From NCBI RefSeq assembly GCF_004011835.1, contig NZ_RKLN01000001.1, positions 1-64,000 on the forward strand: a stretch of 64,000 nucleotides of DNA, in the 5' to 3' direction. The notes beneath the pieces were generated by a model, which was given only the letters and a program-made list of their open reading frames with translations, was not told the origin of the DNA and did not search any database. The position numbers and the translations under genes were made by a program. Source of the stretch: Rhodococcus spongiicola. GTDB taxonomy: Bacteria; Actinomycetota; Actinomycetes; Mycobacteriales; Mycobacteriaceae. This document shows, piece by piece, positions 5,716-45,501 of this stretch; the stretch's first letter is position 1, and the number at the start of each line of letters is the position of its first letter.

Positions 5716-7359
5716 TCACTTGCTGACAGTGGTGCGCTTGACGGTCACCGTCTCCTGGCCGACCTCGGACGCGTCGAGCGCCTCAGCCTCAGCCTCGTTG
5801 ACGACACGCTTTCCGTCGGTGGTGAGGAAGCCGGCCTTGAACTTCTCCGTCGCGACCTTCAGCGCCGCGATCGAATCCTCGTCGAGGGCCTTGCCACCCT
5901 TGATCTGCTCGTAGACGCTGCTGGCGTTGCGGCGCAAGTCCTCGAGCAGTTCAGCCTCGAAGCGACGAACGTCGCCGACCGGAACGGAGTCGAAGACACC
6001 CTCACCGGCGAGGTAGATCGAGATGATCTGGTCCTCGACGGGGATCGGCGAGTACTGGTCCTGCTTGAGCAGCTCGACCAGACGTTGGCCGCGCTCGAGC
6101 TGAGCCTTCGAGGCGGCGTCGAGGTCGGAGGCGAAGGCCGAGAAGGCCTCGAGCTCGCGGAACTGAGCCAGTTCCAGACGCAGAGAACCGGAGACCTTCT
6201 TCATGCCCTTGGTCTGCGCGGCACCACCGACTCGGGAAACCGAGATACCGACGTTGATCGCCGGACGGATGCCCTTGTTGAACAGGTCGGACTCGAGGAA
6301 GACCTGGCCGTCGGTGATGGAGATGACGTTGGTCGGGATGTACGCCGAGACGTCGTTGGCCTTGGTCTCGATGATCGGCAGGGCCGTCAGCGAACCGCCA
6401 CCGAGCTCGTCGGACAGCTTCGCCGAACGCTCGAGCAGACGCGAGTGCAGGTAGAACACGTCGCCGGGGTAGGCCTCGCGACCCGGCGGACGACGCAGCA
6501 GCAGCGAGATGGCGCGGTACGCCTCGGCCTGCTTGGTCAGGTCGTCGAACACGATCAGGACGTGCTTGCCCTGGTACATCCAGTGCTGGCCGATGGCCGA
6601 ACCGGTGTACGGCGCGAGCCACTTGAAACCGGCGGAGTCGGAGGCCGGCGCGGCGACGATGGTGGTGTACTCCATCGCACCCTGCTCCTCGAGGGCAGCC
6701 TTGACGCCCGCGATGGTGGAGCCCTTCTGGCCGATCGCGACGTAGATGCAGCGGACCTGCTGCTTCGGGTCGCCGGTCGCCCAGTTGGCCTTCTGGTTCA
6801 GGATCGCGTCGACGCAGACCGCGGTCTTACCGGTCTTGCGGTCGCCGATGACGAGCTGACGCTGGCCGCGGCCGATCGGGGTCATGGCGTCGATTGCCTT
6901 GATGCCGGTCTGCAGCGGCTCCTCGACGGGCTGACGCTCGAGCACGGTAGCGGCCTGCAGCTCGAGCGCGCGGCTCTCGTTGGTCACGATGTCGCCGAGC
7001 CCGTCGATCGGGCGGCCCAGCGGGTCCACGACGCGGCCCAGGAAGCTGTCGCCGACCGGAACCGACAGAACGTCGCCCGTCCGCCGGACTTCCTGGCCCT
7101 CTTCGATGTGCTCGTAGTCACCCAGGATGACGGCACCGATCTCGGTCGCATCCAGGTTCAGGGCCACACCGAGCACGCCGCCCGGGAACTCCAGCAGCTC
7201 GTTGGCCATCGCCGACGGCAGGCCGGTGATGTGAGCGATGCCGTCGCTGGTGTCGGACACCACGCCGACCTCCTCACGGGAGGCCTCCGGTGAGTAGCTC
7301 GCGGTGTAGGTCTCAATCGCGCTACGGATCTCGTCGGAGGAGATCGTCAGCTCCGCCAT
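5716..7359 (-). CDS. atpA: F1F0 ATP synthase alpha subunit
   Basis: This is the regulatory nucleotide-binding alpha subunit, 547 residues from the chosen start. The open frame extends 37 codons further upstream, but [13 protein letters not shown] is the family N-terminus, so ATG at 7359 is preferred. The P-loop [10 protein letters not shown] and the [11 protein letters not shown] segment are intact. The upstream neighbour is atpH and the downstream neighbour atpG. Confidence 0.97.
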
Positions 7360-32643: not shown

Positions 32644-33762
32644 CTACGGGCGCGGCTCGATGATCGCCGTGATCGCATCGATCTCGGCGCTGGGGATCGA
32701 GAAGTGTTCGGTGATCGCGACGGTGATGGTCTCGCGCCCACTGGTCATGTCGAGCAGGAATCGGGCGACGACGTCGGCACCCCACTCGCGGAACTCGAGG
32801 TCCCGGATGCCGCTGATCGGCCGGTACTGTTCGCCCGTTTCGAGCAGCGAACGGATCTCGTCGCCGGAATCGCCTGTACGCTTTCCGTTCTCGTAACGAT
32901 GACAATGTCGCGCGAGGCGGACCTTGCTCGCGTCGTGGGTGACGAGCGAGTCGATGTACTCTCGCGCCATCGCCACGCGCGGGCTGTCCTGCGGGGCCGC
33001 GTCGGTCAGGTCGGCGATGCCGGCCAGCATGGAAACTGCCAGGTCACGCCGACAGATCAGGAGGTCCGGCAGGTACGGGTGCTCCTCGTTGTAGCGCAGC
33101 GGGGTGCCGTCGATCCGCGAGCAGTGCAGACCCGCCGCGAGTGCCACCCCGACCGGGGCGGCCGAGTCCCACTCCCACTGTCCGCCGGCGTGCACATAGG
33201 CGTCGGCGTCACCGCGGACGACGGCCATCGCCTTCGCGCCGGCGGACCCCATGGGCGCGACGTCGCCGCCGACCCGCTGCGCGAGGGCGTCGACGAACGC
33301 CGGAGGCCTGCTGTCGCTGACCAGGATTCGAGGACGCGGCCGGTCCGATGCCACCGCCCGAGTGCGTCCGCTGACGTACACCTCGCCGAGCGCGGGCTGC
33401 GCGACAGCGGCGGCGGTGATGCCGCGGTCGCGTTCCCACAGCGCGACGTGCACGGCCCAGTCGACACGCCGGGCGAGACCGTACTCTCGGGAACCATCGA
33501 GCGGGTCGATGATCCACACGCGGCGGTTGTCCAGGCGTGCACGGTCGTCGGCGGACTCCTCGGACAGCACCGCGTCGCCGGGGCGGATGGCAGCCAGCCC
33601 CTCGAGCAGAAGGGTGTTGGCCGCCTTGTCACCGCGGCGGCCCAGTTCCTTCGCGGCGGCCTTGTCCAGCGGGGTCTCCCCCAGTTCACGGGACCGCAGC
33701 TCGAGTAGCAGGTTCCCCGCGCGGGCGGCGAGATCGGCGGCGAGTTCTGCGTCGGTGGTCAC
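32644..33762 (-). CDS. cysQ: CysQ-type PAP phosphatase fused to an NTF2-like domain
   Basis: Residues 1 to about 255 are an inositol monophosphatase-type 3'(2'),5'-bisphosphate nucleotidase, which removes PAP, the inhibitory product of sulfotransferases. Metal-site motifs are LSEESADD and [13 protein letters not shown] near residues 70-100, and [10 protein letters not shown] around 196-205. After the usual family end ([12 protein letters not shown]) the frame continues for about 105 residues, beginning [20 protein letters not shown], which resembles SnoaL/NTF2-like domains. Ordinary CysQ proteins are about 250-270 residues. Its start overlaps the cysN/C stop by 4 nt. The fused domain's role is unknown. 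Confidence 0.88.
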
Positions 33763-35612
33763 AGCTCCAGATACTCCATGATCTTGGCTGCCTGCGCGAC
33801 GGGGTCGCCGTCCTCGGGCCGCAAAACGATCTCGGCGTTCCGGGGTACCTCGTACGGGTCATCGACACCGGTAAACCCGGTGATCTCCCCGGCACGGGCC
33901 TTGGTATACATGCCCTTGGGGTCCCGGGCCTCGCACTGCTCGATCGGGGTATCGACGAACACCTCGACGAACGGCAGGCCCGCCTCCCGGTGCAGACGGC
34001 GCACGCGTTCGCGGTCCTCTCGATACGGGCTGATGAGCGAGGCGACCGCGACGAGGCCGGCGTCCGCCAACAGTTGCGCCACGGCGCCGACACGCCGGAC
34101 GTTCTCCGCGCGATCGGCCGCACTGAACCCCAGGTCCGCGTTGAGCCCGTGTCGCAGGTTGTCGCCGTCGAGCCGGTAGGCCGGTACTCCCGCCGCGACC
34201 AGTCGCCGCTCCAATTCGACGGCGACGGTGGACTTTCCAGAAGCCGACAGGCCTGTGAGCCACACCGTCGCTCCACGCGTGGCGCGCTCGTCGCGGGACA
34301 GCGCGGCCGAGTGCCACACCACCTTCGATTCCTTGAGGGTGGGGCCGGTGATCATGCCGGCGGCAACGGTGTTGCCCGTGGTGTCGTCGACCAGAATGAA
34401 GCTGCCGGTGACACGGTTGCGCCGGTACGGGTCGAACAGCAGCGGCTGTTGGGTGCGCAGCTGAATACGTCCGATCTCGTTGAGATTCAACGACTGTGCG
34501 GACTCGTCGCGGTGCAGGGTATTGACGTCGAGGCGGTAGTCGAGCCGGACCACCCGTGCCTTGGTGGCCCTCGTGGTGTGCAGCACTGTGTAGCGCGCGT
34601 CCTCGCTCAGACTCGACTGCTCGGCAAGCCAGCAGATCATCGCGTCGACCTCTTGGCCGACGAGCGGTCGATTGTTAGGCCGGCACAGCGTGTCACCGCG
34701 TCCGACGTCGAGATCGTCGGCGAGTTGCAGGCACACCGCCGACGGTGCGAATGCCTCCCCGATCGGCTCGCCGCCCGGCCCCCAGATCGCGGAGATCGTC
34801 GAGGTGAACCCCGACGGCAGCGCGACGACCTCGTCACCGGGCTTGAAGACACCACTGGCGACGGTGCCCGCGTAGCCACGGAAATCGTGGAGGTCGGCGT
34901 CGGTCTGCTGCTGCGGGCGGACGACGTACTGGACCGGAAGCCGCGCATCGATGAGATTGCGATCGGAGGCGATGTGTACCTCCTCGAGGTGGTGCAGCAG
35001 CGACGACCCCTCGTACCAGGGCATGTTCTCGGTACGGCTGACGATGTTGTCGCCCTCGAGCGCCGACACCGGAATGAACGTCAGGTCGTGCACGTCCAGC
35101 TTGGTCGCGAACTGACCGAACTCGTCCTTGATCTGCTCGAAGCGTTCCTGCGACCAGTCGACGAGGTCCATCTTGTTGACACACAGCACGAGGTGTGGAA
35201 TCCCGAGGAGGGTGGACAGGAACGCGTGCCTCCGGGTCTGCTCGAGCACCCCCTTGCGGGCGTCGACCAGGATCAGCGCAAGATCCGCGGTGGAGGCGCC
35301 GGTGACCATGTTGCGCGTGTACTGCTCGTGGCCGGGGGTGTCGGCGATGATGAACTTCCGTTGCGGGGTCGCGAAGTAGCGGTGCGCCACGTCGATCGTG
35401 ATTCCCTGCTCCCGCTCGGCCCGGAGCCCGTCGGTGAGGAGCGCAAGATCGGTGTGCTCGGCTCCGCGTTCGCGGCTGCTGCGTTCGACGGCCTCGAGCT
35501 GGTCCTCGAAGATCGACTTCGAGTCGTACAGCAAGCGCCCGATCAGCGTGGACTTGCCGTCGTCGACGCTGCCCGCGGTCGCGACGCGGAGGAGTTGCCG
35601 GGTGTGCACCAT
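33759..35612 (-). CDS. cysN/cysC: Bifunctional sulfate adenylyltransferase subunit 1 / APS kinase
   Basis: This 617-residue fusion makes PAPS. The N-terminal about 430 residues are the CysN GTPase that drives ATP sulfurylase (G1 [11 protein letters not shown]3 DTPGHEQY, G4 NKMDL). The C-terminal about 185 residues are APS kinase CysC, with P-loop [12 protein letters not shown] at 35612 overlaps the cysD stop by one base (TGATG), and the family N-terminus begins there, so the longer frame is rejected. The same fusion is known in M. tuberculosis (Rv1286). Confidence 0.96.
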
Positions 35613-36538
35613 CAGAAGTACCCCTCCTTCTTGCGGTCTTCCATGCCGGCCTCGGAGATCCGGTCGTCCGCGCGGGTCGCGCCGCGCTCGGTGATGCGGC
35701 TGGCCGCGACCTCGGTCACGACCTGCGCAGGGGTGGAGGCCGACGACTCGACACAGCCCGTGCACGTCGCGTCTCCGACAGTGCGGAAACGGACGAGCTC
35801 GTCGCGCGGTTCCTCACCCGGTAGCAGCGTCAGGAACCTCGTGTGCGCCAGTAGCATTCCGTCGCGTTCTACGACCGGGCGGCGGTGTGCGTAATAGATC
35901 GGCGGCAGGTCGATGTCCTCCTCGAGGATGTACTGCCAGATGTCGAGTTCGGTCCAGTTCGACAGCGGGAACACTCGGATGTGCTCCCCCTTGCGATGCC
36001 GGCCGTTGTAGAGATTCCACAGTTCGGGGCGCTGCGCGCGGGGGTCCCACTGACCGAACTCGTCACGGAAACTGAAGACCCGCTCCTTTGCGCGAGCCTT
36101 CTCCTCGTCGCGACGGGCTCCGCCGAACACGGCGTCGAACCGATTTTCACGGATTCCACGGAGCAGCGCATGGGTCTGCAGACGGTTGCGACTCGCTCGT
36201 GGTCCGGTCTCGTCGACCACGCGTCCGGCGGCGATGTCGTCCTCGACGCTCGCCACGACCAGCCGCAGGCCGAGGCGCCCCACGGTCCGGTCGCGAAACT
36301 CGATCACCTCGTCGAAGTTGTGTCCCGTGTCGACGTGCATCACTGGGAACGGCAGCGGTGCCGGCCAGAAGGCCTTCGCCGCGACGTGCAGCATCACCAC
36401 CGAATCCTTGCCGCCCGAGAACAGCAGGACGGGGCGCTCGAAGGTCGCAGCGACCTCTCGGAAGATGTGGACCGCCTCGGCCTCGAGTGCCTGCAGATGG
36501 GACAACTCGTAGCCCGGCGGGGATGTCAACGGGGTCAC
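35612..36538 (-). CDS. cysD: Sulfate adenylyltransferase subunit 2
   Basis: This is the catalytic ATP sulfurylase subunit of the PP-loop family, about 308 residues. The pyrophosphate loop is LLFSGGKDSVVML (about residues 33-45). It forms APS from sulfate and ATP together with CysN. GTG at 36538 is chosen because GAGGAG lies 7 nt upstream; the frame could begin 17 codons earlier, but that would read through the palindromic operator at 36560-36579. It is the first gene of the cysD-cysNC-cysQ operon. Confidence 0.94.
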   Translation of the reverse strand: MTPLTSPPGYELSHLQALEAEAVHIFREVAATFERPVLLFSGGKDSVVMLHVAAKAFWPAPLPFPVMHVDTGHNFDEVIEFRDRTVGRLGLRLVVASVEDDIAAGRVVDETGPRASRNRLQTHALLRGIRENRFDAVFGGARRDEEKARAKERVFSFRDEFGQWDPRAQRPELWNLYNGRHRKGEHIRVFPLSNWTELDIWQYILEEDIDLPPIYYAHRRPVVERDGMLLAHTRFLTLLPGEEPRDELVRFRTVGDATCTGCVESSASTPAQVVTEVAASRITERGATRADDRISEAGMEDRKKEGYF

Positions 36539-36559: not shown

Positions 36560-36579
36560 CCGGTACATTTTTGTACCGG
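36560..36579. promoter_or_regulatory. Palindromic operator of cysD (GGTACA-N4-TGTACC)
   Basis: CCGGTACA-TTTT-TGTACCGG is a perfect 8-bp inverted repeat ending 21 nt before the cysD start codon. The core GGTACA-N4-TGTACC recurs, with identical spacing, before the divergent DUF1214-SDR-sulfotransferase operon (37674-37691) and at no other non-coding place I found in this window. The neighbouring IclR protein is the obvious candidate to bind it. Confidence 0.7.
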
Positions 36580-36606
36580 TCCGGTTCACAGACCAGCTAT
36601 GGGCCG

Positions 36607-36636
36607 AGAATAGAGCCGGGTCCTCCCTCCGGTCAA
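36607..36636 (-). promoter_or_regulatory. cysD: cysD operon promoter
   Basis: On the minus strand TTGACC (36631-36636), an 18-nt spacer and TATTCT (36607-36612) form a promoter. Transcription would start near 36600, which places the palindrome at about +20 to +40, a position suited to roadblock repression. Confidence 0.5.
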
Positions 36637-36684
36637 TGGGCTACCTGTCGGGTCTGCTGCCGTGCGGGCTGGGCACCGTTCGGT

Positions 36685-37620
36685 CTAGTAGCGGACGGGC
36701 CGTCGCCCTCCGACCTCCGCGGTCACCGCATCCGCGGCCGCCACGAGCGCCTCACCGCGCCGGGCGATCTCGGTGCCGCTGATCGATGAGCCGACGTCGA
36801 GTGTCAGCACCAGCGATTGATGACCGTCGGCGTCGTAGCACGGGGCGGCGATCAGGCTCACCGGGTACTCGACATCGGCCTCCGTCTCACTGCCGAGGTA
36901 GACGCGGTCGCCTAGGCTCGAGACCATCTCGCCGATCAGTTCGCGTAGTTCCTCCGGCAGCTCCCGCCCGGCGACTCCTGCCATGAGAGAGAAGAGCTTG
37001 CGCCCGACAGGCGTGAGCCGCTCGACGAGGTACCCGACGCGGCGGCAATCGTCGACGACGCGCCCGAGCAGTTCCCGATCGAGCACGACCGGTAGGGCCG
37101 GCTCGCGGCGCAACCACGCCTCGAGGTCGTCGTCGCCGTCCCAGATCACGTACATCAGCCCCACCGGTGGAGCGAACGGGTACGCCTGCCCGACGCGGGC
37201 CGTGGTGCGACCCACCCTCATCCCTTGCGGGGCAACGGTCTCGAGAATCATGACCTGGTCACCCACGACCGCCGACGCTGTGCAGACCGCGTCGAACTCG
37301 GCCGCGAGCCGATCTAGTTGGCCGCGGGCGATCGGCCCGACGGCGAACCCGCGCTGCGCGGCCCGACCCGCCGCGATGAGCGCGGGCCCGAGTCCGTAGG
37401 TCTTCGAGGCCGGGTCTCGGGTGAGGTATCCGCCGGACACCAACTCGGACAGGATGCCCAGACAGGTCGGCTTGCTGATCGACAGTGCCCGCGCCAGTTC
37501 CGACAGTCCGAACCGTTGGACCTCACGCGCGACGAGGAAGTCGAGGACCTGCACCACTCGCTCGGTCGGCGGAGATCGACGCCCGCTCGGCTCAGCAGGC
37601 TCGGCAACCCCTGAAGTCAT
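36685..37620 (-). CDS. IclR-family transcriptional regulator
   Basis: This 311-residue protein has an N-terminal winged helix-turn-helix (about residues 12-75; GLSELARALSISKPTCLGIL is the recognition region) and a C-terminal GAF-like effector domain (about residues 90-300). ATG at 37620 has AAGGAG 6 nt upstream; 17 further in-frame codons are rejected. It lies between cysD and the divergent sulfotransferase operon, with the shared palindrome on both flanks. It probably controls both and possibly itself. The effector is unknown. Confidence 0.9.
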   Translation of the reverse strand: MTSGVAEPAEPSGRRSPPTERVVQVLDFLVAREVQRFGLSELARALSISKPTCLGILSELVSGGYLTRDPASKTYGLGPALIAAGRAAQRGFAVGPIARGQLDRLAAEFDAVCTASAVVGDQVMILETVAPQGMRVGRTTARVGQAYPFAPPVGLMYVIWDGDDDLEAWLRREPALPVVLDRELLGRVVDDCRRVGYLVERLTPVGRKLFSLMAGVAGRELPEELRELIGEMVSSLGDRVYLGSETEADVEYPVSLIAAPCYDADGHQSLVLTLDVGSSISGTEIARRGEALVAAADAVTAEVGGRRPVRY

Positions 37621-37691
37621 TGACCACTCCTTGAAACACGTTCTATCGTCGGACAACACCAGATCTACCACTCAGGTACATATTTGTACCT
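37620..37691 (+). promoter_or_regulatory. Promoter and operator of the sulfotransferase operon
   Basis: AGGTACA-TATT-TGTACCT (37674-37691) matches the cysD operator core exactly and ends 20 nt before the GTG start. Upstream, TTGACC (37620-37625) and a weaker -10 around 37642-37648 (CTATC) give a start near 37655, so the palindrome again falls at about +20. The geometry is the same as at cysD. Confidence 0.55.
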
Positions 37692-37711: not shown

Positions 37712-38878
37712 GTGCTGACGGATCCACTCGCCGAGGCCATCGCCGAGGCCGAGACCCTCGTCAAAGAGGCCCCCCACATCCGGTCGGAGCAGGATCTCCT
37801 CGAGGGAATGCAGTACCTCGCGGGCGGCATTCTCGCGACCGTCCACGCGGCCTGGGCTACAGAGAAGACCCATCCGAGCTTCATCCAGGGCACCGGCCCG
37901 TTCATGAAGATGGGCCTCGACAACCCCGACACCCTGTACTTCGGCGCACGGATCAACGACGACGCGGAGTACATCGTGACCGGCACCCGGGGCACCACGG
38001 CCGACCTGAGCTTCCAGGTACTCAGCGGCAACTACACGAACGCGAACGTGCCCGGCAGCGAGATCGCCTTCGACGACCGGGAACTCCACATCGAGGACGA
38101 CGGCACGTTCGTCGCGACGTTCGGCCCCGGGCCGGCGGAGGGACGCCGGAACCACTTCACGCTCGCGCCGGGGTCGAGCCAACTCGTGGTTCGCGAGGTC
38201 TACAGCGACTGGAGCCAGAAACGCGGCACCATCCGGATCGAGCGTGCCGACAGGATCGGCATCCCGGTGCCACCGCTCACGCAGGAGGAGACGGAGAAGC
38301 GATTCGCCCGAGCCGGCAAGGCGCTGGTCAGTCGCGTGAAGACGTGGCTGCAGTTCCCGCGGTGGTTCTACGACAACCTGCCGGTCAACACGATGACCGC
38401 GCCGCGGCTGACCCCGGGCGGCCTGGCGACGCAGTACTCGTCCGTGGGCCACTACGACCTCGCCGACGACGAGGCGATGATCATCACCGTCCCGAAATCC
38501 GATGCGCCGTATCAGGGTTTCCAACTCGGCAGCCTGTGGTACATCTCGCTCGACTACATCAACCACCAGACGTCGCTGAACAACGCGCAGGCTCAGGTCG
38601 ATCCCGACGGGATGATCCGGATGGTCCTCAGCGAGCGGAACCCGGGCGTCACCAACTGGCTCGAAGCGCTCGGCCACCCGCGTGGTTACCTGCAGTTCCG
38701 GTGGCAGCGGACGTCCCGCGAATTCACCCCGGAGGACGGCCCGCGCGTCGAGGTGGTGAAGTTCGACGAGATCCCCGGGAAACTCCCGTTCCACGAACAC
38801 AACAAGATCACGCCGGAGGACTTCGCTGCCCGCATCGCGCAGCGCCAGGCCGCCGTCGCCGACCGGATGATGGGGTAG
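37712..38878 (+). CDS. DUF1214-like protein, first gene of a sulfotransferase operon
   Basis: This 388-residue protein appears soluble, without signal peptide or membrane helix. The C-terminal half, with aromatic-rich strands around YQGFQLGSLWYISLDYIN (about residues 270-287), resembles the DUF1214 fold. By length and neighbours it corresponds to M. tuberculosis Rv3531c in the cholesterol-catabolism region. GTG at 37712 has AAGGAG 6 nt upstream. The 4-bp gap to the SDR gene implies an operon. The biochemical role is unknown. Confidence 0.82.
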   Translation: MLTDPLAEAIAEAETLVKEAPHIRSEQDLLEGMQYLAGGILATVHAAWATEKTHPSFIQGTGPFMKMGLDNPDTLYFGARINDDAEYIVTGTRGTTADLSFQVLSGNYTNANVPGSEIAFDDRELHIEDDGTFVATFGPGPAEGRRNHFTLAPGSSQLVVREVYSDWSQKRGTIRIERADRIGIPVPPLTQEETEKRFARAGKALVSRVKTWLQFPRWFYDNLPVNTMTAPRLTPGGLATQYSSVGHYDLADDEAMIITVPKSDAPYQGFQLGSLWYISLDYINHQTSLNNAQAQVDPDGMIRMVLSERNPGVTNWLEALGHPRGYLQFRWQRTSREFTPEDGPRVEVVKFDEIPGKLPFHEHNKITPEDFAARIAQRQAAVADRMMG

Positions 38879-38882
38879 AGCC

Positions 38883-39665
38883 ATGACAAACCTGCTGCAG
38901 GACAAGGTGATCGTCGTCTCGGGCGTAGGTCCGGCGCTCGGCCGGACCCTGGCGCTGCGCTGCGCTGAGGCGGGCGCCGACCTGGTGCTGGCGGCACGCA
39001 CCCAGGCCCGCCTGGACGAGGTCGCCAAGGAGGTCACCGACCTGGGCCGGCGCGCGGTGACGGTGTCGACCGACATCACCGACGATGCCTCGGCCGCGCA
39101 TCTGCTGGCCGCCACCACGGACGCCTACGGCCGGGTCGACGGGCTGATCAACAACGCGTTCACGGTGCCATCCATGAAGCCGTTCGCCCGCACCGACTTC
39201 CAGCACATCCGGGACGCGATCGAGCTGACCGTGCTCGGGGCGCTGCGGCTGACCCAACTGTTCACCCCGGTCCTCGCGGAATCCAAGGGTGCGGTGGTGA
39301 ACGTCAACTCGATGGTGCTGCGGCACTCCCAGGAACGCTACGGCAGCTACAAACTGGCCAAGTCGGCCCTGCTCGCGATGTCGCAGTCCCTGGCCACCGA
39401 ACTCGGGCCGCAGGGCATCCGCGTCAACTCCGTTGCTCCCGGATACATCTGGGGTGAGACGTTGAAGAAGTACTTCGAGCACCAGGCGGAGAAGTACGGC
39501 ATCACCGTCGAACAGATCTACGAGCACACCGCCGCGAACAGCGACCTGAAGCGACTGCCGACCACCGAGGAGATCGCCGACGCAGTGATCTTCCTCGCCT
39601 CGCCGATGGCGAGCGCGATCACCGGCCAGTGCCTCGATGTCAACTGCGGCGAGTTCCACCACTAG
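38883..39665 (+). CDS. Short-chain dehydrogenase/reductase (SDR)
   Basis: This 260-residue NAD(P)-dependent oxidoreductase has cofactor motif SGVGPALGR (residues 13-21), an NNAF segment in place of NNAG, catalytic Ser in VNSMVLRH, and YGSYK (Tyr and Lys of the active site, about 155-159). It is the middle gene of the DUF1214-SDR-sulfotransferase operon and matches Rv3530c in length and order. It likely acts on the same hydroxy or keto substrate that is sulfated, which is inference. Confidence 0.92.
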   Translation: MTNLLQDKVIVVSGVGPALGRTLALRCAEAGADLVLAARTQARLDEVAKEVTDLGRRAVTVSTDITDDASAAHLLAATTDAYGRVDGLINNAFTVPSMKPFARTDFQHIRDAIELTVLGALRLTQLFTPVLAESKGAVVNVNSMVLRHSQERYGSYKLAKSALLAMSQSLATELGPQGIRVNSVAPGYIWGETLKKYFEHQAEKYGITVEQIYEHTAANSDLKRLPTTEEIADAVIFLASPMASAITGQCLDVNCGEFHH

Positions 39666-39686: not shown

Positions 39687-40850
39687 ATGACCGAAAGCAC
39701 CAGTTCCGATCGCACGACGGTCGGCACCATCGAGGACCTGCACGCGTCCGCTACCCGGATGACCGGGCTCACCGACTTCGGAGTCGACGACTACACCGAG
39801 GCGCTCGGAGTCCTGCTCGAATCCTACGCACGGGACGAGGATCTGACCCCGTTCGGCAGCAAGATCTCCCGGGTCTTCCTGCGCGGCGCCCTCGTCGCCC
39901 GTCTCCTCAGCGAGTCTGCTTGGGCGCAGTTTCCCGAGCACGCCGACGTGCGCATCGAGCGACCGATCTTCGTCACGGGCCTGCCCCGGACCGGCACGAC
40001 CGCCCTGCACCGTTTGCTCACGGTGGACCCGGCGCACCAGGGCCTCGAGATGTGGCTGACGGAGATGCCGCAGCCGCGCCCACCCCGGGACACGTGGGAA
40101 TCCAACCCGGTATTCCAGGCACTCGAACAGCAGTTCAGCCAACATCACGTGGAGCATCCCGAGTTCATGGGCGTGCACTACATGTCCGCCGGCGAGGTCG
40201 AGGAGTGCTGGCAACTGCTGCGGCAGACGTTCAAGTCGCTGTCTTACGAGTGCCTCGCAAACCTGCCCACGTACTCGAAGTGGCTCGAAGGGCAGGACTG
40301 GACGAACGCGTACGCGCGGCACAAGAAGAACCTCCAGCTGATCGGCCTGCACGATCAGAACCAGCGCTGGGTGCTCAAGAACCCGAGCCACCTGTTCGCG
40401 CTGGACGAATTGATGTCGGTGTATCCCGACGCACTGGTCGTCCAGACCCATCGCCCGCCACGGACGATCGTGCCGTCGATGTGCAGCCTCACCGAACAGG
40501 CCACCGAGGGGTGGTCGAACAAATTCCGTGGCGAGGTGATCGGCCGCAGCCAACTCGACCTGTGGGCGCGCGGTCTCGAAACCTTCACGTCCGCGCGGAC
40601 CAAGTACGACCCCGCCCAGTTCGTCGATGTCGACTACAGCGACTTCGTCGCGGACCCGCTGGGCACCGTCGAGGGGATTTACTCGCACTTCTCGATCCCC
40701 CTGTCGGAGCAGGCACACAGCGCGATGGAGGACATGCATGCCGAGAGTCGCTCCGGCAACCGCAAACCGGCCCATCGCTACACGCTCGAGGACTACGGGC
40801 TGACCCCAGAAGAGGTCGACGAACGGTTCGGGGACTACGCCGGCGCGTGA
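39687..40850 (+). CDS. PAPS-dependent sulfotransferase
   Basis: This 387-residue protein is of the PF13469-type sulfotransferase family. The 5'-phosphosulfate loop is FVTGLPRTGTTALHRLL (residues 95-111). The 3'-phosphate site is RPPRTIVPSMCSL (about 254-266). No signal peptide is present, so it acts in the cytoplasm on a small molecule or lipid. It corresponds to M. tuberculosis Rv3529c. PAPS would come from the adjacent cysD-cysNC operon, and its product PAP would be removed by CysQ. A GGAGCAAAGGG tract precedes the ATG. Substrate unknown. Confidence 0.9.
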   Translation: MTESTSSDRTTVGTIEDLHASATRMTGLTDFGVDDYTEALGVLLESYARDEDLTPFGSKISRVFLRGALVARLLSESAWAQFPEHADVRIERPIFVTGLPRTGTTALHRLLTVDPAHQGLEMWLTEMPQPRPPRDTWESNPVFQALEQQFSQHHVEHPEFMGVHYMSAGEVEECWQLLRQTFKSLSYECLANLPTYSKWLEGQDWTNAYARHKKNLQLIGLHDQNQRWVLKNPSHLFALDELMSVYPDALVVQTHRPPRTIVPSMCSLTEQATEGWSNKFRGEVIGRSQLDLWARGLETFTSARTKYDPAQFVDVDYSDFVADPLGTVEGIYSHFSIPLSEQAHSAMEDMHAESRSGNRKPAHRYTLEDYGLTPEEVDERFGDYAGA

Positions 40851-42026: not shown

Positions 42027-42076
42027 GTTTGCGGTGGGTCCGCGAACCGCGAACTCGCACGTGGGAGGATCGGGAC

Positions 42077-42613
42077 ATGCCGACACCGTCACCGTTGCCC
42101 CTGGACCCGATCGAGGAAGCGCATCGACAGTGGACCGAGCACGGTTGGGGGGCCGTGGCCGACGGCATGGCCGCAGTGACGTCGGTGGTGCGCGTCCAGC
42201 AGATCATGATGGCCCGGGTCGAGGAGGTCCTCAAGCCCTTCGGGCTGACGTTCTCACGCTACGAACTGCTGACACTGCTGACCTTCACCCGCAACGGGGC
42301 GCTGCCGATGGCCAAGGCAAGCGCCCGACTCCAGGTACACCCGACGAGCGTGACCAACGCGGTCGACCGACTCGAGGCCGCCGGCCTGGTGCGCCGTGTA
42401 CCGCATCCGACTGATAGGCGTGCAACCCTCGTCGAGATCACCGACGAGGGACGTGAACTGTCGGTCCGCGCGACCAGGGCACTCAACGAACAGGTATTCG
42501 CCGAGCCCGGCCTGGCACCCGACAAGCTGGACGCGCTGATCCGCATTCTCACCGAACTGCGTCATCAGGCAGGGGATTTCGACACCGGCGACAGACCCGG
42601 AAAGTGGCACTAG
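42077..42613 (+). CDS. MarR-family transcriptional regulator
   Basis: This 178-residue winged-helix protein has LTFSRYELLTLLTF, the HTH around ASARLQVHPTSVTNAVDRLE (about residues 87-106) and the wing RRVPHPTDRRATLVEIT. ATG at 42077 has GGGAGGA about 8 nt upstream; 16 earlier in-frame codons lie too close to the hairpin and are rejected. It converges on the valine-catabolism operon, which it may regulate, but no operator match is visible to me. Confidence 0.9.
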   Translation: MPTPSPLPLDPIEEAHRQWTEHGWGAVADGMAAVTSVVRVQQIMMARVEEVLKPFGLTFSRYELLTLLTFTRNGALPMAKASARLQVHPTSVTNAVDRLEAAGLVRRVPHPTDRRATLVEITDEGRELSVRATRALNEQVFAEPGLAPDKLDALIRILTELRHQAGDFDTGDRPGKWH

Positions 42614-42655
42614 CAAGGGGCATCAGCAAAAGGCACTGACAAAGTGGCACTACCG

Positions 42656-42696
42656 CAGCCCGGCCCCGCACCGTCCTGAGACGTGGGACCGGGCTG
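42656..42696. terminator. Bidirectional hairpin between MarR gene and echA
   Basis: CAGCCCGG (42656-42663) pairs with CCGGGCTG (42689-42696), with further C/G pairing inside, in the 91-bp gap between convergent genes. Just before it, AAAGTGGCACT occurs twice (42600-42610 and 42641-42651). Confidence 0.55.
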
Positions 42697-42704
42697 GGCC
42701 GCTG

Positions 42705-43481
42705 CTAGTGGTGGCCGAAGTTCGGATCACGCTTCTCGGTGAACGCGGCCATGCCTTCCTTCTGGTCCTGGGTCGCAAACGCGGAGTGGAACACTCGCCG
42801 TTCGAACCGCACACCCTCGGTCAGCGTTGACTCGAACGCCCGGTTGACCGACTCCTTGACCATCATCGCGATCGGCAGGGACATGTCGGCGATCCTCGAC
42901 GCGGTCGCGATGGCGTCGTCGATCAGGTCGATGGCCGGTACGACCCGGGAGACCAGCCCCGCGCGCTCGGCTTCCTGGGCGTCCATGGTGCGGCCGGTCA
43001 GACACAGGTCCATCGCCTTGGCCTTGCCGACTGCCCGGGTCAGCCGCTGCGAACCACCGATGCCGGGCAGCACGCCGAGCTTGATCTCGGGCTGACCGAA
43101 CTTGGCCGAGTCTGCGGCGATCAACACGTCACACATCATCGCGAGTTCACATCCACCCCCGAGCGCGTAGCCGGCGACGGCGGCGACGATCGGCTTTCGG
43201 GCCGCGGCGAGGCGATCCCACGCCGAGAACCAGTCGTCGAGGTACATGTCCATGAACGACTTGCTCTGCATCTCCTTGATGTCCGCGCCCGCCGCGAACG
43301 CGCGCTCGCTGCCGGTGAGCAGGATCGCGCCGATGCTCCGGTCCTTCTCGAAGTCCTCGACGGCAGCGACCACCTCCGACATCAGCTGCGCGTTGAGCGC
43401 GTTGAGGGCGTCCGGCCGGTCGAGCGTGATCATGCCCACGCGGCCGGTCCGTCCGACCCGAATGGTCTCGTAGTCCGTCAT
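42705..43481 (-). CDS. Enoyl-CoA hydratase (methacrylyl-CoA hydration)
   Basis: This 258-residue crotonase-fold enzyme has the oxyanion-hole segments [11 protein letters not shown] and [16 protein letters not shown] and the second catalytic Glu region [15 protein letters not shown]. As the last gene of the mmsA operon it most likely hydrates methacrylyl-CoA to 3-hydroxyisobutyryl-CoA in valine breakdown, though such enzymes have broad specificity. ATGA overlap with mmsB. Confidence 0.9.
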
Positions 43482-44389
43482 CGAGTGTCTCCGTTCGACC
43501 TGTCCCTGATGTCCCTGATGATCGCCGAGAAGTCCTCGCCGCCGTGCCCGGTCTCGTGGAACCTCCGATACAGCTCGGCGGCCCGAATTCCGAGTTCGCC
43601 GTCGACACCGTTGTCACGCAACGCGTTCGCAGCCAGACCGAGGTCCTTGTCCATGAGCGCGGCCGCGAAGCCCGGCTCGTAGTCGTTGTTCGCCGGGCTC
43701 CCAGGAACCGGCCCCGGCACCGGGCAGTTGGTGGTCAGTGCCCAGCACTGACCTGACGCGTTGGAGGCGACGTCGAACAGGGCCTGGTTGCTCAGTCCCA
43801 GCTTCTCCCCGAGCACGAACGCCTCGCTTATCGCGATCATCGACACCCCGAGGATCATGTTGTTGCAGATCTTCGCGGCCTGTCCGACGCCCGCCCCACC
43901 GCAGTGCACGACCTTGCGTCCCATCGCCTCGAGCAGCGGACTCACTGTCTCGAAGTCCTCGTCGGCACCCCCGACCATGAACGCCAGCGTGCCCGCGGAC
44001 GCACCCATCACACCACCTGAGACCGGCGCGTCGACACCACGATGACCCGCTTGCTCGACGAGGTCGTGGGCGGTGCGGGCATCGGCGACGTCGATCGTCG
44101 AGCAGTCGACGAACAGCGTGCCCGGACGCGCCGCGGCGAGGAGACCACCGCGGTAGAGGTCGAGCACATGCTTGCCGCCGGGCAGCATCGTGATGACCAC
44201 ATCGGCGTCGGCGGCCGCCTCAGCGGCCGAGCCGACCACGGTGACGCCGGCCCGCGCGGCCACTTCCAACGCGGCCGGGACGAGATCGAATCCACGCACT
44301 CGGTGCCCGGCCTTCACCAGGTTCGCCGCCATCGGTCCACCCATGTGACCGAGGCCGACGAATCCGATGGTGGTGCCTTTGTCAGTCAT
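43478..44389 (-). CDS. mmsB: 3-Hydroxyisobutyrate dehydrogenase
   Basis: This 303-residue NAD-dependent beta-hydroxyacid dehydrogenase has the N-terminal [20 protein letters not shown], substrate-binding [22 protein letters not shown] and catalytic Lys in [10 protein letters not shown] (about residue 175). It oxidises 3-hydroxyisobutyrate to methylmalonate semialdehyde. There are 4-nt overlaps on both sides. Confidence 0.94.
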
Positions 44390-45501
44390 TGCTTCTCCTC
44401 CCCATTCGCGAGCGCCGCGGCCAAACCGAGTTCGGACTCACCGAGAGGCTCGAAGAATCGATCCACGTGTTCGTCGGTGACCGCCTCGAGGGTCGACGGC
44501 GACCATGCGGGTTTCCGGTCTTTCTCTACCACCTGCGCGCGAATGCCCTCCACCAGATCATGAGAATCCAGGCACGCCGACGACACCCGGTACTCCTGAT
44601 CGAGCGCCTCCTCGAGGCTGCCGAATTCACGTGCCTGTCGCAGCGCCCGCAACGTCACCTTCACGGCAGTAGGGGATTTCGCGAGGATTTGCTCTGCGGC
44701 CGCCGTCGCCTCAGGCACGCCGCTCGCGCGGAGGTTGGCGACGATCTCCTCGACCGTGTCGGCGGCGTAGGCCGCGTCGATCCAGCCACGCTGCTCGGCC
44801 AGCTCCGATGCTGGGGGCGGCTCCGCGAACAATGCCAGCGCGTCCTCGACCGAGCCGGTCGAGAGCACGCGTTCGAATTCCGCGAGCCGACCCGACGGGA
44901 CGAAATGATCGGCGAATCCGCAGTAGATGGCGTCGCCGGCCCCCAGTCGGGACGTCGTCAGCGCGATGTGGGTGCCGAGCTCCCCGGGCGCCCGCGACAA
45001 CAGGTAGGTTCCGCCGACATCAGGGACGAATCCGATCCCGACCTCGGGCATTGCGATCGTCGATCGCTCGGTGACGACCCGTACGTTGCCGTGGGCCGAG
45101 ATCCCGACACCTCCACCCATGACGATGCCGTCCATGATCGCGACGTACGGCTTGCCGGAGCGGGCGATCGCGGCGTTGAGCACGTACTCGTCCCGCCAGA
45201 AGTCCTTCGACCCACTGCCACCCTCGCGGGCGTCGTGGTAGATCGAGACGATGTCGCCTCCCGCGCACAGACCGCGCTCGCCGGCGCCGATGACCAGCAC
45301 CGCGTGGACCCAGTCGTCGGCGGCCCATTCGAGCAACGTCGACGTCAGCGCCTGCACCATGGTGTGGGTGAGCGCGTTGATCGCCTTGGGTCTGTTGAGG
45401 GTGATGCGACCGAGACCGCCGACCCGCTCGACGATCACCTCGGCCTGGTTCGACGCCGTACCGGCGGCGGCGCGTCGATCGTCGCCGCTCGCCGTGCTCA
45501 C
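44386..45501 (-). CDS. 3-Hydroxyisobutyryl-CoA hydrolase
   Basis: This 371-residue member of the crotonase superfamily is longer than hydratases (about 260) because of the C-terminal extension typical of HIBCH. Characteristic segments are GLCAGGDIVSIYHDAREGG, MDGIVMGGGVGISAHG and MPEVGIGFVPDVGGTYLL. It releases CoA from 3-hydroxyisobutyryl-CoA, the step between the hydratase and MmsB. It overlaps the acyl-CoA dehydrogenase stop by 4 nt. Confidence 0.93.
   Translation of the reverse strand: MSTASGDDRRAAAGTASNQAEVIVERVGGLGRITLNRPKAINALTHTMVQALTSTLLEWAADDWVHAVLVIGAGERGLCAGGDIVSIYHDAREGGSGSKDFWRDEYVLNAAIARSGKPYVAIMDGIVMGGGVGISAHGNVRVVTERSTIAMPEVGIGFVPDVGGTYLLSRAPGELGTHIALTTSRLGAGDAIYCGFADHFVPSGRLAEFERVLSTGSVEDALALFAEPPPASELAEQRGWIDAAYAADTVEEIVANLRASGVPEATAAAEQILAKSPTAVKVTLRALRQAREFGSLEEALDQEYRVSSACLDSHDLVEGIRAQVVEKDRKPAWSPSTLEAVTDEHVDRFFEPLGESELGLAAALANGEEKQ

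Follow-up and report, generated by a model that had tools for sequence, protein, structure and literature searches.

A candidate sulfation regulon under IclR-type and KstR-type operators in Rhodococcus spongiicola and its relatives

Why do the genes for sulfate activation and a sulfotransferase operon in Rhodococcus spongiicola carry the same palindrome in front of them, with a gene for an IclR-family protein in between? The question is whether the two operons form one regulon, which protein would bind the palindrome, and what would be sulfated. Here, the window means the whole stretch of 64,000 nucleotides that was analyzed. The initial annotation of this DNA recognized the IclR-type operator, and this part of its reading stands, but it overlooked a second, KstR-type palindrome that ties the operon to steroids. 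Our best reading of the compared sequences is a sulfation regulon that would be under double IclR and KstR control and tied to steroid catabolism.

Both exact copies of GGTACA-N4-TGTACC that had been described before cysD and before the sulfotransferase operon were recovered, and their coordinates were confirmed (Table 1). They are the only two in the whole genome (3,967,637 bases in 29 contigs, both strands), with no third exact copy on either strand, while we estimate a chance expectation of about 0.24 for 12 fixed bases in 4.0 Mb. Matches with up to three mismatches are close to expectation in the window (13 observed vs 10.8 expected), and thus only the two exact copies stand out. The cysD-side core extends to a 20-bp palindrome, CCGGTACA-N4-TGTACCGG, at 36560-36579. 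A spacing of 20-21 nt to the start codon had been given for both copies; counted from the core, this holds for the DUF1214-like gene (21 nt, GTG at 37712) but is 23 nt for cysD (GTG at 36536-36538). The TTGACC-type promoters upstream of both palindromes are present as claimed, and the iclR start codon (ATG at 37618-37620; a longer frame begins at 37671) shares one base with the -35 of the sulfotransferase promoter. The iclR gene does lie between the copies, but the two promoters are not both divergent from it, as iclR and cysD are read in the same direction and only the sulfotransferase operon diverges.

Table 1. Genes, predicted promoters and putative operator elements of the locus, in order of position in the window.
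Feature	Position	Strand	Basis
cysQ-like phosphatase (probable PAP clearance)	32644..33762	-	Inositol_P 99.5 bits
cysNC, ATP sulfurylase large subunit fused to APS kinase	33759..35615	-	NF004035 972.7 bits, cut-off 715
cysD, ATP sulfurylase small subunit	35612..36538	-	TIGR02039 464.1 bits, cut-off 396.6
cysD-side operator core GGTACA-N4-TGTACC	36562..36577	-	exact match
Third half-site GAACC, cysD-side operator	36583..36587	-	position conserved in 38 operators; read in sequence
Predicted cysD promoter TTGACC-N18-TATTCT	36607..36636	-	sequence; conserved in relatives
Decayed KstR-type site AGGACCCGGCTCTA, 3 mismatches	36611..36624	-	cysD promoter
iclR-family regulator	36685..37620	-	HTH_IclR PF09339 30.7 bits, cut-off 22
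Predicted sulfotransferase-operon promoter TTGACC-N18-TATCGT	37620..37649	+	sequence; conserved in relatives
KstR-type site TGAAACACGTTCTA	37632..37645	+	between sulfotransferase-promoter -35 and -10; fits TnnAACnnGTTnnA
Third half-site CTACC, sulfotransferase-side operator	37665..37669	+	position conserved in 63 operators; read in sequence
Sulfotransferase-side operator core GGTACA-N4-TGTACC	37675..37690	+	exact match
DUF1214-like, first gene of sulfotransferase operon	37712..38878	+	PDB 6ans E 2.7e-31
Short-chain dehydrogenase (SDR)	38883..39665	+	NF005909 432.3 bits, cut-off 258
Sulfotransferase	39687..40850	+	Sulfotransfer_3 PF13469 197.7 bits, cut-off 27

Some of these gene assignments are firmer than others. 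The C-terminal ligand domain of the IclR protein (PF01614) scores 19.6 bits with a cut-off of 24 (E 0.00073), and the best CysQ model gives the cysQ-like product 87.9 bits, under its cut-off of 228.8. The cysNC product has an APS_kinase domain match. The name DUF1214 used in the initial annotation is weak, as PF06742 reaches 16.7 bits where the Pfam gathering cut-off is 25, and we therefore write DUF1214-like only. The sulfotransferase is homologous over residues 7-382 (E 3.4e-171) to PDB 2zq5, which we take to be M. tuberculosis STF1 (Rv3529c). Beyond the sulfotransferase, at 42029-45501, lie MarR, enoyl-CoA hydratase and hydroxyisobutyrate-dehydrogenase-like genes, which stay near the cluster in several loci of genera g6, g23 and g27.

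When upstream regions were compared, most relatives had a second palindrome, TAGAACACGTTCTA and its variants, between TTGACC (-35) and the -10 of both promoters. It corresponds to the published KstR core TnnAACnnGTTnnA, which overlaps the -10 in mycobacterial promoters according to the available part of the KstR study (PMC1995591). At the cysD promoter of the window species the motif differs at three positions and is not counted as a KstR-type site; this decay means that shared control there would come from the IclR operator alone. The centres of the KstR-type and IclR-type palindromes are mostly 42-50 bp apart, with exceptions of 39-40 bp (L104, L125, L196), of 22 bp on the sulfotransferase side of g30 and some g6 loci, and of -40, i.e., in reverse order, in L099-L102. 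The composite AACNNGTTNNA-N15-45-GGTNCANNNNTGNACC occurs in 102 of 401 family genomes, covering 12 of 31 genera, and its reversed control in one by our reading of the table (G371); a few composite matches are plainly elsewhere and probably due to chance (G243:C35, G035:C13). A relative of this iclR at E <= 1e-70 accompanies the composite in 100 of the 102 genomes, the others being G028 and G067, and when g6, g23, g27 and g30 are pooled, 61 of the 62 genomes that have this iclR carry the composite, compared with 1 of the 37 in which it was not found (these counts, like others per genus, were read by eye from tables), but this co-occurrence is not independent evidence of binding because most composites sit at the iclR locus itself. 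G028 (g16) has one composite match; neither an iclR relative nor a DUF1214-like match (E <= 1e-80) is listed for this genome.

Within the genus, the exact palindrome is present in one or two copies in each of the 14 genomes, and its reversed control is missing in 13. A genome-wide scatter unlinked to these genes, which the initial annotation had named as refuting its reading, was thus seen neither in the window species nor in the genus. The cysD-side palindrome has one mismatch in G011 and G012 and is lost in G002; the latter locus (L108) has lost both operators at cysD and kept iclR and the sulfotransferase-side pair. Across the 401 family genomes, 86 contain the exact palindrome, many with GC-rich centres, and 14 the reversed control (counted from the table).

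Neighborhoods were compared as 12-kb stretches, of which 60 early ones were chosen partly by motif match and mostly by iclR match, and L022, L023, L024 and L026 were dropped as duplicates. With up to one mismatch and within 160 bp, 66 of 67 sulfotransferase promoters and 43 of 54 linked cysD promoters have the operator. For the KstR-type site, also with up to one mismatch, the corresponding counts are 64 and 49; these include both promoters of L111, where the sole match shares bases with the palindrome. Exact KstR cores occur at 62/67 and 36/54, and the rates in shuffled promoters are 0.010-0.014 for the operator and 0.024-0.025 for the KstR-type site. These counts include L190-L196, which were chosen for having the composite; without motif-picked loci the operator is found at 59/60 sulfotransferase and 40/50 cysD promoters, and the KstR-type site at 57/60 and 45/50. 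Of 63 listed cysD matches, 30 were turned into loci, and the counts omit a second DUF1214-like match (56%) in G094, for which there was no locus. The 11 linked cysD promoters in which the operator was missing under these settings are L108, L088, L107, L104, and all seven of g22. In g22, cysD lies close behind iclR and its KstR-type site differs at one position, so cysD may be read through from iclR.

The arrangement of cysNC-cysD-iclR against DUF1214-like-SDR-sulfotransferase recurs in g1, g6, g21, g22, g23, g25, g27 and g30. A cysQ match comes next in most such loci and is missing in six of the seven g22 loci (L089-L094) and three g30 loci; in R. yananensis (L028), cysQ lies directly behind iclR. 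Most of the layout is present in g15 and g26, and g19 has iclR together with the DUF1214-like and sulfotransferase genes; across g15, g19 and g26 (five loci), no SDR match lies between these two genes. In g13 and g29, iclR accompanies the three-gene operon and no cys genes are adjacent. Judged from the genomes compared, the neighborhood of cys genes, iclR and sulfotransferase operon is old.

Matches away from this neighborhood were also seen. In four close g6 genomes (L069, L071, L073, L076), GGTACA-N4-TGTACC occurs once more away from the cluster, around position 6001. This copy is AT-rich at its centre and directly precedes a reading frame of roughly 1,100 codons, and it may be a third target or a shared accident; the four lack independent weight because the DNA around them is near-identical. 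The exact GGTACAAAAATGTACC is found in L029, L032 and L035 (G210, G347 and G227; g9), from genomes in which no close relative of this iclR was found.

The operator itself appears larger than the palindrome. In an alignment of 63 distinct sulfotransferase-side and 38 distinct cysD-side operators, an ACC at -8 to -6, five bases before GGTnCA, is strongly conserved, and therefore the operator is best described as nnACC-N5-GGTnCA-N4-TGnACC, with three predicted half-sites that form two overlapping dyads. The dyad centres are 10.5 bp apart, i.e., one DNA turn. In sulfotransferase-side operators the third half-site is TACC, and those before cysD mostly have AACC or GACC. The operator is far better conserved than its flanking DNA across many genera.

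The proposal that sulfate activation is partly dedicated to sulfation fits the presence of a separate assimilation locus in the same genome. This locus has a second CysD (63% identical to that of the window) together with a sulfite/nitrite-reductase-type protein, CysH and CysN. Its CysH passes the APS-reductase model (244.9 vs 235.3 bits) and two broader CysH models but fails the PAPS-reductase model TIGR02057 (162.3 vs 254.2 bits), and its CysN has no APS-kinase match. Sulfate reduction via APS requires no PAPS. With assimilation served by this CysH-CysD-CysN locus, the CysD-CysNC-CysQ set of the window would be left to make PAPS and clear PAP. No exact palindrome, exact KstR core or convincing relaxed site was found in front of the assimilation locus, and two relaxed one-mismatch matches lie elsewhere in its 10-kb stretch. 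Neither site was found (up to one mismatch, within 200 bp) at any of 18 unlinked cysD genes (seven in g29, four in g13, two in g19, and one each in g4, g6, g9, g12 and g23), so the PAPS link is lineage-bound. A general sulfur-starvation regulon is unsupported, with no convincing site in front of the assimilation locus and all 18 unlinked cysD genes lacking both.

KstR represses steroid catabolism, and in EMSA it binds a site before Rv3531c in M. tuberculosis (Kendall et al., 2007; PMC1995591, in the part available). We found 24 of the 25 bases of the Rv3531c probe matched in 2 of 248 mycobacterial genomes searched, directly followed by DUF1214-like, SDR and sulfotransferase genes whose products are 63-65%, 69-73% and 64% identical to those of the window, respectively. 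By this comparison, the Rv3531c operon is apparently the M. tuberculosis counterpart of the window operon. Rv3529c, Rv3530c (possible oxidoreductase) and Rv3531c are listed among cholesterol-related genes in the available part of PMC6429209.

In the genome of the window species, the strict pattern TNGAACNNGTTCTA occurs at 10 places, and the window site (TGAAAC...) lies outside this strict pattern. Five of the ten are at C1:836-914 kb, around HsaD (C1:893.5 kb) and near an MlaE-type permease gene. There, a perfect TAGAACGTGTTCTA separates an acyl-CoA dehydrogenase gene from a TetR gene, an arrangement that matches the kstR/fadE34 layout published for mycobacteria (PMC1995591, in the part available). 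As other possible KstR targets, a perfect TAGAACATGTTCTA is found near the mycofactocin methyltransferase (MftM) gene (L188 about 4359, G000:C25:48358-48371) and another near a ferredoxin-reductase-type gene (C25:53668). HsaD scores over its cut-off in all 14 genomes of the genus. Among 80 genomes of g6, g23 and g27, hsaD is present in 46 of 47 with the operon vs 8 of 33 without, with kinship ignored and G067 counted as operon-bearing; the sole operon-bearing genome without hsaD, G277, is 74% complete. Within g6 the figures are 10/10 vs 4/27, and in g27 all three genomes without the operon have hsaD. That the sulfate-donor and sulfotransferase genes share a double operator, half of which resembles the one for cholesterol use, suggests that Rhodococcus-type soil bacteria sulfate something during growth on steroids.

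The protein that binds the palindrome can be approached through loci that have lost iclR, i.e., those with none found among up to five candidates scored per genome. Of the mycobacterial (g29) sulfotransferase operons, 17 have iclR and 17 lack it; the palindrome is found in 16 of the former and in one of the latter, as a GC-rich match. With three motif-picked loci (L193, L194, L196) left out, the figure for operons with iclR is 13/14. The KstR-type site is found in 14 of 17 with iclR and 16 of 17 without, or 14 of 15 without G447 and G484, which were found by the KstR-site pattern. Thus, palindrome and iclR are lost together and the KstR-type site is kept, and the comparison supports the initial proposal that the IclR protein co-regulates both operons. 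In a tree of the DUF1214-like protein, 16 of the 17 iclR-less rows are on one branch and the 17th is a second copy in G119, and the losses therefore amount to about one event in mycobacteria. L111 (G074:C39:38000-50000, g21) is a second, diverged cysQ-cysNC-cysD-iclR/DUF1214-like-SDR-sulfotransferase cluster with an iclR that is 55% identical; its two operators show the same kind of change, reading GTTCCA-N4-TCGAAC and GTTCCA-N4-TGGAAC, and the cluster lacks an exact KstR core. In G067 (g6), whose cluster has no iclR in between, the sulfotransferase-side palindrome is decayed and the cysD-side palindrome intact, which, read from the sequence, is half for and half against the IclR protein as the binder. 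The recognition helix reads KPTCLGI in 48 of 49 readable relatives (57 rows compared, 8 of them without usable sequence) and KPTALGI in L231, and in the window species KPTCLGI is not found in any of the nine remaining IclR-type matches that score over 40 bits. Covariation of helix and operator was looked for among relatives and not found; as the helix is nearly invariant, it does not explain the operator variants GGTAC, GGTCC and GTTCC. We consider it probable that the IclR-family protein encoded between the two copies has the palindrome as its operator and that this operator, with the KstR-type site, controls both operons.

An unlikely alternative is that another regulator, e.g., a sulfur-status protein, binds the palindrome and that iclR is a passenger. 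It would account for a helix that hardly varies although the operator does, and for the cysD-side copy that G067 keeps, but not for the joint loss in mycobacteria with the KstR-type site left in place, the decay of the other copy in G067, or the parallel change of both L111 operators; nor does the assimilation locus have a matching site in front of it. A leader RNA hairpin that controls translation or stability is very improbable, even though the palindrome follows the predicted transcription start and precedes the start codon, and a complete stem of six pairs is possible in 40 of the 66 copies on the sulfotransferase side and 32 of the 39 on the cysD side. This explanation is weakened by the broken stem pair in the other 26 of 66 sulfotransferase-side copies and by the conserved third half-site outside the hairpin, and one mycobacterial clade has the palindrome upstream of the -35. 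Two accidental copies in a conserved neighborhood can be rejected with near certainty: the gene order is old and the DNA could resemble by descent, but the genome has two copies only, the operator is conserved in genus and family and beyond its flanks across many genera, it occurs at nearly all sulfotransferase promoters vs a shuffled rate of about 0.014, and the reversed composite is nearly absent.

Of more weight, though still improbable, is the possibility that the IclR regulon is right but that the other palindrome is not a KstR site here or that the operon is unrelated to steroids. KstR binding is known from another species, M. tuberculosis (PMC1995591, in the part available), the cysD-side site is decayed in the window species, and the operon-less g27 genomes have hsaD as well. 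However, the core and its position relative to the -35 and -10 are as published (PMC1995591, in the same part), half of the strict sites fall in the steroid gene region of the genome, and the g6 genomes with and without the operon differ in hsaD.

Under double IclR and KstR control, a composite promoter of IclR operator and KstR-type operator would act on two transcription units. One would be the DUF1214-like/SDR/sulfotransferase operon and probably also iclR itself, read divergently; the other would be the cysD-cysNC-cysQ operon, which would make PAPS and clear PAP. As long as steroid-derived metabolites are absent, KstR bound between -35 and -10 would exclude RNA polymerase. Just past the transcription start, the IclR protein, with its three half-sites on one DNA face, would be a second block, which is suited by the location of the operator downstream of the predicted transcription start in most lineages. 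A pathway metabolite might lift this block; a role of the IclR protein as activator appears less likely. The mycobacterial clade with the IclR operator upstream of the -35 is unexplained by a simple downstream block, and there the operator could act on iclR or as an activator site. In this way the cell would gain sulfate donor and sulfotransferase at the same time and would sulfate a hydroxy compound that is derived from, or induced by, steroids. We more tentatively propose, at somewhat less than even chances, that in mycolic-acid bacteria sulfation belongs to steroid catabolism as an integral and regulated branch, in which KstR and a dedicated IclR protein gate the sulfotransferase and, in Rhodococcus-type lineages, a private set for making and recycling PAPS, and a steroid-derived intermediate is sulfated; this would also be the role of Rv3531c-Rv3529c.

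A search for IclR, sulfotransferase and Rhodococcus together found no publication in a coverage mostly outside subscription journals, nothing on this regulon was among the literature matches listed, and a term search of PMC6593523 was also empty. In the available main text of PMC1995591, neither "iclr" nor "sulfotransferase" occurs. Our reading offers a specific role for an operon of the KstR (cholesterol) regulon that had no stated function in the available parts of the literature examined, and names a probable second regulator of that operon, with its operator and the PAPS genes that serve it. If this reading is true, the PAPS supply of these bacteria tracks steroid use, and a sulfated steroid-related compound awaits discovery in a pathway that is studied for virulence and steroid manufacture.

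The window operon shares with the KstR regulon the core TnnAACnnGTTnnA and its promoter position, and relatives of the EMSA-positive Rv3531c probe precede the same three genes; different from what the available part of PMC1995591 describes are the additional IclR-type operator and the inclusion of the PAPS operon in Rhodococcus-type lineages. The homologous structure 2zq5 agrees with the sulfotransferase assignment and is silent on regulation and substrate. IclR-family regulators are typically encoded beside a divergent target operon, with a palindrome in the shared region. The locus has the same regulator gene, divergent operon and palindrome in the shared region, but unlike the general IclR layout it combines an operator of three half-sites, a further predicted target operon located behind iclR, and the KPTCLGI helix.
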